NCBI RefSeq assembly: GCF_029953285.1
Contig: NZ_JASAOI010000011.1
Span: forward strand, 124,001-188,000
Length of the DNA stretch: 64,000 nt
Direction: 5' to 3'
From: Yinghuangia seranimata
GTDB lineage: Bacteria > Actinomycetota > Actinomycetes > Streptomycetales > Streptomycetaceae
The number at the start of each line of letters is the position of its first letter. Within the stretch, counting starts at the first letter, position 1. Both the position numbers and the translations under genes were made by a program. Under the pieces are notes generated by a model. That model was not told the origin of the DNA. It searched no databases and saw nothing but the letters and a program-made list of their open reading frames with translations. Below, piece after piece: positions 924 to 5,060 of the stretch.

Positions 924-4076
<3,153 letters not shown>

Positions 4077-4084
4077 ACGTCTTC

Positions 4085-4371
4085 CTTCCGCGGGCTCTTG
4101 ACTCAGCTGCCGGCGAAGGGACGAGGCGCGTGCCCCGCGGTACCACCCTTCTTGGCCGCCACCCGCGTACGCGGGACCCGGCGGCCCTCTCGAGGTCGGC
4201 GAGGGTCGGTTCTACCCGGCGCCCCCGAGGCACACGGCCTGGGGCTCCGATCTTCCGACGGCTCCGGGGTGATCTTCGGACCGCGCTCGCCTCCGGGCTC
4301 ACACCGTCCCCGGATCGCTCGCGGCTGCGTACGGACCTACTCGTCCCCATCGACGCTTTCTCGCTCGCGGG
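4085..4371 (-). promoter_or_regulatory. T-box riboswitch, isoleucine (AUC) specifier
   Basis: Read on the minus strand, the ileS leader contains the conserved T-box core AGGGTGGTACCGCGG (4149 down to 4135), whose UGGU would pair with the uncharged tRNA acceptor end. Upstream are the other usual elements: a GGGGACGAGTAG segment near 4354-4343, a GGTGTGAGCCCGG distal stem I motif near 4307, and an unpaired-looking GAAGATCACC in which AUC (4273-4271) would be the isoleucine specifier. There is no T-run terminator before the start codon, and the core is followed by a region that could cover the ribosome site. Translational control, as in other actinobacterial ileS T-boxes, is the likely mode (inference). 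Confidence 0.9.
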
Positions 4372-4445
4372 AATTCTACGGCCCCCGGGCCGGGTGCCGC
4401 CCCCGGGTTTCGCGACGCCGGTGCGGCGGGCGGCATCATGGCCGC

Positions 4446-4739
4446 ATGGCTTCCCCCGAGCAGAGCGCCGCGGCACGCCGGATCGCGATCCGGGTGAAGC
4501 CCGGGGCGTCCCGTACCGCCGTCGGGGGGACGCACGGCGAGGCGCTCGTGGTCGCGGTGGCCGCGCGGGCGGTCGACGGCAAGGCGACCGAGGCCGCGCT
4601 CCGCGCGCTGGCCGACGCGCTGGGCGTGCGCCGCCGCAGGCTGACCCTGGTGACCGGGGCGACGAGCCGCGACAAGGTGGTCGAGCTGGCCGAGCCGCCG
4701 GCCGACCTGGACGCGGTTCTGACGCGGCTGCGCGGGTAG
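4446..4739 (+). CDS. DUF167 (YggU-type) family protein
   Basis: This 97-aa protein carries the core of the DUF167 family: a basic IRVKPGASRTAV start, then VDGKATEAALRALADALGV and a final VTGATSRDKVVELA. Members are small alpha/beta proteins of unknown function. The ATG at 4446 follows a CATCAT -10-like box at 4434-4439 by six bases and lacks a clear ribosome site, so the transcript may be leaderless. It is divergent from ileS; the two promoters and the T-box share 370 bases. Confidence 0.9.
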   Translation: MASPEQSAAARRIAIRVKPGASRTAVGGTHGEALVVAVAARAVDGKATEAALRALADALGVRRRRLTLVTGATSRDKVVELAEPPADLDAVLTRLRG

Positions 4740-5060
4740 CACCTCACCGGCGGCCCCACGGCCGCCCCGCTCTGCCCGGCCCGCGGGTGGCTACGCGCTG
4801 TACACCGCGAGTCCACGAGTGCCTAACGAGACGTACGGCATCCGGTAACGAAGCGGACACGCACAACAGGGATAGTCACGCCCGGTTCTGGGCACAACCG
4901 ACTTACGTTGCGGACGCCGACCTGCCGAATCCCGGTTTCCGCAGCGCGCCCCGGTTGTCCGGGGCGAGGGGCGGGCGTAAGCTTCCCAGCTGTTTTGTGG
5001 TGTATGTGAAGCATGTGAACTATGTCGGAAATGACCCTACGGAACGAGGGGGCCGTGACC
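4740..5060. other. Intergenic region upstream of the TraR/DksA gene
   Basis: This 321-base gap holds no convincing gene. It contains a hairpin with an 8-bp stem (4947-4954 with 4959-4966). A less GC-rich stretch at 4981-5040 has two direct copies of ATGTGAA (5004-5010, 5013-5019) and a TTGTGG sequence (4995-5000) that could act as a -35 element. A promoter for the downstream gene is likely somewhere in 4980-5045. Confidence 0.4.

Follow-up and report, generated by a model that had tools for sequence, protein, structure and literature searches.

The ileS T-boxes of Nocardia farcinica and Mycobacterium tuberculosis are both ultrashort. Structures of these two RNAs have been solved, and they are described as having a truncated Stem I (PMC7583486). 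In 2005, ileS T-boxes with a hairpin that sequesters the Shine-Dalgarno sequence were reported in several Actinobacteria (Seliverstov et al., PMC1262725), and a survey from 2008 again mentions T-boxes 5' of ileS in some species (PMC2494555). A 2020 review states, where it compares classes, that a few translational T-boxes have a long Stem I and that most have an intermediate or ultrashort one (PMC7583486). Actinobacterial reference genomes were searched with a class II model for TBDB, as its description says (PMC7778990), so leaders like the one reported here may be listed there.

The window analyzed here, a 64,000-nucleotide stretch of Yinghuangia seranimata DNA, contains a complete T-box leader at about 4366-4077, directly upstream of the isoleucyl-tRNA synthetase gene ileS (924-4076; 1050 aa; NCBIfam TIGR00392, 873.4 bits against a cut-off of 621.4). 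The gene and all leader features named below are on the minus strand. This leader is very probably a translational riboswitch for tRNA-Ile(GAU). As the first-pass annotation had noticed, the T-box core AAGAAGGGUGGUACCGCGGGG, an AUC specifier, and the UGGU sequence can all be read 5' of ileS, and the Rfam T-box model RF00230 now aligns over its full length (positions 1-219) to 4362-4114, with a score of 57.6 bits and E = 8.9e-12 for 901 bases searched. When the whole genome is searched (9.8 Mb, 98% complete), the ileS leader is the one match at E<=0.001 (E = 2.4e-11), far beyond what chance would produce. The element had been placed at 4085-4371, which is nearly right: its conserved part is 4362-4114, its likely start is near 4366, and the Shine-Dalgarno sequence and AUG reach to 4074. 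The leader shares its gene, its T-box, and a sequestering hairpin in place of a terminator with the examples of Seliverstov et al. (PMC1262725), and in these respects we can name no essential difference from what is described there. It adds a member to a known class: translational actinobacterial ileS T-boxes were already published in 2005 (PMC1262725). It also provides support, in one more actinobacterium, for control of ileS translation by the sensing of tRNA-Ile.

Several parts of the T-box were assigned from the Rfam alignment. A long Stem I (4261-4358) has a K-turn at its base, the GACGAGUA strand, the AG bulge AGCGA, and the distal loop GGACGGUGUGAG. The specifier AUC (Ile) occupies 4271-4273 and is followed by A4270. 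The antisequestrator (4115-4151) pairs GAAGGG at 4151-4146 with CCCUUC at 4120-4115 to form helix A1, and it also contains the T-box bulge and helix A2; the UGGU at 4142-4145 is the predicted partner of the tRNA-Ile ACCA end. Stem II (4205-4259) was recognized by eye in the leader and its relatives from a GUCGG/CCGAC base and the S-turn strands AAGA and GUAGAA, and inspection of the same-genus relative L108 reveals GCCGG/CCGGC at the equivalent place. A Stem III hairpin (GGCCGCC...GGCGGCC, 4154-4186) is evident in the sequence and is paired in the whole-leader fold.

We compared 93 leaders: that of the window, 80 from loci drawn by an IleS protein search (L002-L081), and 12 from relatives found with RF00230. 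Of at least 583 loci matched in the protein search, the best 80 were taken, titled Streptomyces or Actinacidiphila, and all 80 have GGGUGGNACCGCG located 77-123 nt 5' of the ileS match even though they were drawn by IleS protein alone. They are thus independent evidence for a T-box at ileS, which the 12 RF00230-found relatives are not. The specifier place is occupied by AUC in 93/93 leaders (the pattern required AUC, so another codon would have counted as a miss, and none was missed), and an A follows directly 3' in all 93. UGGU is present in 82/82 leaders that could be parsed, with 11 of the 93 dropped from parsing. The genome of the window encodes a tRNA-Ile with anticodon GAU and discriminator A, in which the CCA is not encoded; it was located by a loose sequence pattern after a first, stricter one gave nothing. 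The AUC specifier fits this anticodon, and UGGU fits the ACCA end with its discriminator A. Together with the TIGR00392 gene directly downstream, these matches bear out the earlier assignment of isoleucine specificity and of ileS as the target. In the ileS leader of L116, the T-box has UGGC in place of UGGU, which would mismatch a discriminator A.

A second AUC at 4251-4249 was considered as the specifier and rejected, since it sits in an S-turn strand of Stem II and is absent in the same-genus L108 and others. It belongs to a second GAAGAUC-like copy (4254-4249) that repeats the specifier region and is not kept in the relatives compared. A wider check covered 32 relatives with ileS by pattern searches of their leaders. 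The GACGAGUA strand and specifier pattern was found in 29/32 (missed in L089, L126, and L142), and the AG-bulge and distal-loop pattern was found in 30/32 (missed in L089 and L106), yet L089 and L106 had passed the motif patterns of the 93-leader comparison.

The AG-bulge motif is present in 93/93 leaders, as AGCGA in 92 and AGAGA in one, and the distal-loop motif is likewise present in 93/93. For covariation, we aligned 30 of the 93 leaders, chosen to be non-redundant, and scored them against the structure of the window's Rfam alignment, which has 20 Stem I pairs and therefore 600 cells. Pairing is possible in 96.8% of these cells, compared to 93.7% in shuffles, and it falls to 30-54% when the partner is slid by one to three columns. 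Changes on both sides affect 6 of the 20 pairs (shuffle mean 2.6) and 22 cells (shuffle mean 6.8; slid controls 1-5). None of 500 shuffles was as high on any of these three measures, although such counts are optimistic owing to the relatedness of the leaders. Further pair types (14, versus 12.3 in shuffles) were matched by 59/500 shuffles, so this measure does not rise beyond them. Among the best covarying pairs, 55-78 varies between C-G (20), U-A (7), and U-G (3), and pair 31-90 is C-G in 14 leaders, U-A in 8, U-G in 1, and unpaired in 7; pair 26-94 also belongs to this group. In the window itself, the inner-helix pair 28-92 is a U-U mismatch.

Conserved pairing and covariation across these 30 leaders imply that Stem I is full-length. 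As aligned, the Stem I of the window includes the predicted elbow-binding module and is not of the ultrashort class, which is recognized by the absence of the AG bulge and distal loop; both are present here. The ileS T-boxes of N. farcinica and M. tuberculosis, as described (PMC7583486), share with it the Ile specifier, Stem II with an S-turn, the discriminator, and translational output, but the Stem I of the window differs in being full-length with an AG bulge and distal loop. Compared with canonical long Stem I T-boxes, the window matches RF00230 positions 1-219, distal Stem I included, but it differs from them in that no terminator was found, in its predicted Shine-Dalgarno sequestration, and in a score below gathering.

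The output of this leader would depend on a competition for the 3' strand of helix A1. This strand, CCCUUC at 4120-4115, has its complement in the Shine-Dalgarno strand, which lies in GGAAGGA (4083-4089), 6 nt 5' of the AUG at 4076-4074. Minimum-energy folds of both the domain and the whole leader contain a sequestrator (4078-4123) in which CGUCCCUUC at 4123-4115 pairs with GAAGG at 4088-4084 and GACG at 4081-4078. The unconstrained fold of the window domain is this sequestered form (-28.5 kcal/mol); with the antisequestrator forced (-26.9 kcal/mol), only one of the five Shine-Dalgarno bases (GAAGG) remains paired. An alternative off-state built mainly on CCGCGGG of the T-box and CCCGCGG at 4094-4088 was rejected because its forced fold reaches -19.6 versus -28.5 kcal/mol. 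When the whole leader is folded, as the first-pass annotation had proposed, Stem III and the sequestrator form in the minimum-energy structure, but Stem I as given by RF00230 does not. The folding energy of the whole leader is uninformative, with no signal relative to shuffles (z = -0.06; 43/100 equally good).

The alternative pairing recurs in relatives. We searched for the best duplex between the A1 3' strand region and a target that begins 12 nt beyond it, ends where the ileS match starts, and in some leaders runs a few codons into ileS. This duplex takes in a Shine-Dalgarno-like motif in 93/93 leaders, and at most 5 of 100 shuffles are as good in 88/93. The exceptions, per 100 shuffles, are the window (9), L018 (7), L089 (18), L107 (6), and L108 (8); for the window alone, the duplex is consequently not beyond chance in G+C-rich DNA. 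An own-group comparison of anti-Shine-Dalgarno pairing, which dropped 11 of the 93 leaders and misplaced the Shine-Dalgarno region for some, gave a weak preference of about 0.6 and 1.3 kcal/mol and was superseded by the duplex test. The minimum-energy fold sequesters the Shine-Dalgarno sequence in 85/90 parsed leaders, the other three of the 93 having been dropped because their start codon could not be placed. Across the 90, the energy of the sequestered form averages 4.2 kcal/mol below that of the antisequestrator (range -12.8 to +1.9). Two competing folds of this kind, as modeled here, are what a translational T-box would be expected to have. When the antisequestrator is forced, however, four of the five Shine-Dalgarno bases still pair locally in 38/90 leaders, and this predicted pairing weakens a simple on/off picture for those relatives.

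These features suggest how the leader could operate. Stem I would bind tRNA-Ile through the AUC-GAU specifier-anticodon pairing, and its AG bulge and distal loop would contact the tRNA elbow. In an uncharged tRNA, the ACCA end could pair with UGGU and stabilize the antisequestrator (4151-4146 with 4120-4115), which would leave the Shine-Dalgarno sequence free and permit ileS translation. With charged tRNA, or with none, the A1 3' strand may pair with the Shine-Dalgarno strand instead, which would turn translation off.

Control of transcription, through a terminator that lacks a U-run or through Rho, is the best of the other explanations, and we consider it improbable. Long Stem I elements are described as general for transcriptional T-boxes in the text of the 2020 review (PMC7583486), and Rho-dependent ends cannot be detected by the scan that we used. 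However, that scan found no terminator-like sites in 3900-4800, each of the 93 leaders has a Shine-Dalgarno-like motif in the strand competing with the antisequestrator, and the alternative helix predicted by the domain fold of the window ends beside the AUG. The absence of a T-run terminator that the first-pass annotation had pointed out therefore stands. Its view that the switch probably acts on translation agrees with this result, with the Shine-Dalgarno pairing of all leaders, and with the sequestered minimum-energy fold. It had added that this is as known for actinobacterial ileS, which holds for the mode of action as reported (PMC1262725), but not for the long Stem I, since most translational T-boxes are described as shorter (PMC7583486).

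That the leader is a degenerate relic without function is a still poorer explanation, and we find it very hard to sustain. It draws on the score of the window, which is below the Rfam gathering cut-off: a scan at the default gathering score (93) called no T-box in the window, so that the proposed Rfam run returns a full-length RF00230 match only when an E-value threshold is used in place of this cut-off. Yet among 61 genomes (its own and 60 relatives), 54 have an RF00230 match and none reaches the gathering score; in 14 control genomes, a match is found in five and the gathering score is passed in two. Since 54/61 genomes match and none does so at gathering, the missed default call reflects an effect of the cut-off on this lineage and not a defect of the element. 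The specifier, UGGU, AG bulge, distal loop, and A1 are furthermore intact and fit the tRNA-Ile of the genome. The gathering cut-off of Rfam overlooks T-boxes of this type in the window's own genome and its relatives.

The ileS transcript probably starts near 4366, as judged from a putative -10 element, TAGAAT, at 4378-4373 (4373-4378 in forward order). This hexamer is kept in relatives: TA[CG]A[AC]T occurs 27-35 nt 5' of the GACGAGUA motif in 92/93 leaders. A consensus scan of both strands in 3900-4800 found no sigma-70-like sites. A divergent DUF167 gene (4446-4739, plus strand; 97 aa; TIGR00251, 84.3 bits against a cut-off of 35; PF02594) lies upstream. The spacer common to both genes, previously given as 370 bases, measures 369 bp to the DUF167 ATG at 4446, of which about 290 would be ileS leader. 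The inferred ileS start is only about 79 bp from this ATG, and the geometry makes an overlap of the two promoters likely. The short shared spacer is the one observation that bears on whether the two genes may interfere, as the first-pass annotation had raised. DUF167 adjoins ileS in 6/32 relatives that have ileS and is divergent in all six, comprising L108 of the same genus and L089, L103, L104, L142, and L143 of other families of the order. It is scarcely credible that the conservation reflects a DUF167 promoter and not an RNA element, for despite the short distance and these six divergent neighbors, the element is found in 80/80 loci (L002-L081) with no DUF167 match upstream (three hold <410 bp of upstream sequence and cannot tell), and the covariation and tRNA match would be left unexplained.

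A long Stem I appears to be characteristic of T-boxes in the window's lineage. A long Stem I model (R1) was built from the 30 leaders and used to search 394 genomes of the class, with matches counted irrespective of the downstream gene. R1 matches occur in 167/394 genomes and the T-box core pattern in 270/394, a pattern that is neither complete nor clean, because it misses 9 of the 40 genomes that R1 matches in the window's family (f1) and a reversed control hits some. In that family, R1 is found in 40/40 genomes and the core pattern in 31/40, whereas in family f6 R1 is found in 0/35 and the core pattern in 35/35. These counts are consistent with a possible division by lineage into long and short Stem I forms. 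We stand evenly divided on a broader proposition: translational T-boxes with a long, elbow-binding Stem I are not uncommon, being the rule in the window's family, and the view that most translational T-boxes do without the elbow contact may reflect the lineages studied. A lineage that keeps a full-length Stem I would provide a natural system in which elbow contact and translational output co-occur.

Additional T-boxes were seen alongside that of ileS. Several relatives carry a second T-box, its specifier read by eye as GAC (Asp), 5' of an ORF that resembles an archaeal-type aspartate--tRNA(Asn) ligase. Leader and ORF are both present in L082, L083, L085, L086, L091-L093, L095-L097, L101, and L110, and in the further relatives L084, L090, L098, L105, and L140; the leader alone is seen in L100, L124, and L141. 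The best match of the 227-aa fragments in L082 and L083 is NF003483 (256 and 233 bits, below the full-length cut-off of 353), and the other ORFs were judged by eye. A literature search by title and abstract found nothing on a GAC T-box with aspartate--tRNA(Asn) ligase in Actinobacteria. A T-box-like leader at about 1488-1733 of L139 has a UCC (Ser) specifier by eye and precedes a putative seryl-tRNA synthetase ORF. The window also contains a tRNA gene at 60353-60271 on the minus strand (RF00005, 55 bits), with a long variable arm and an anticodon that reads by eye as CAA (Leu).
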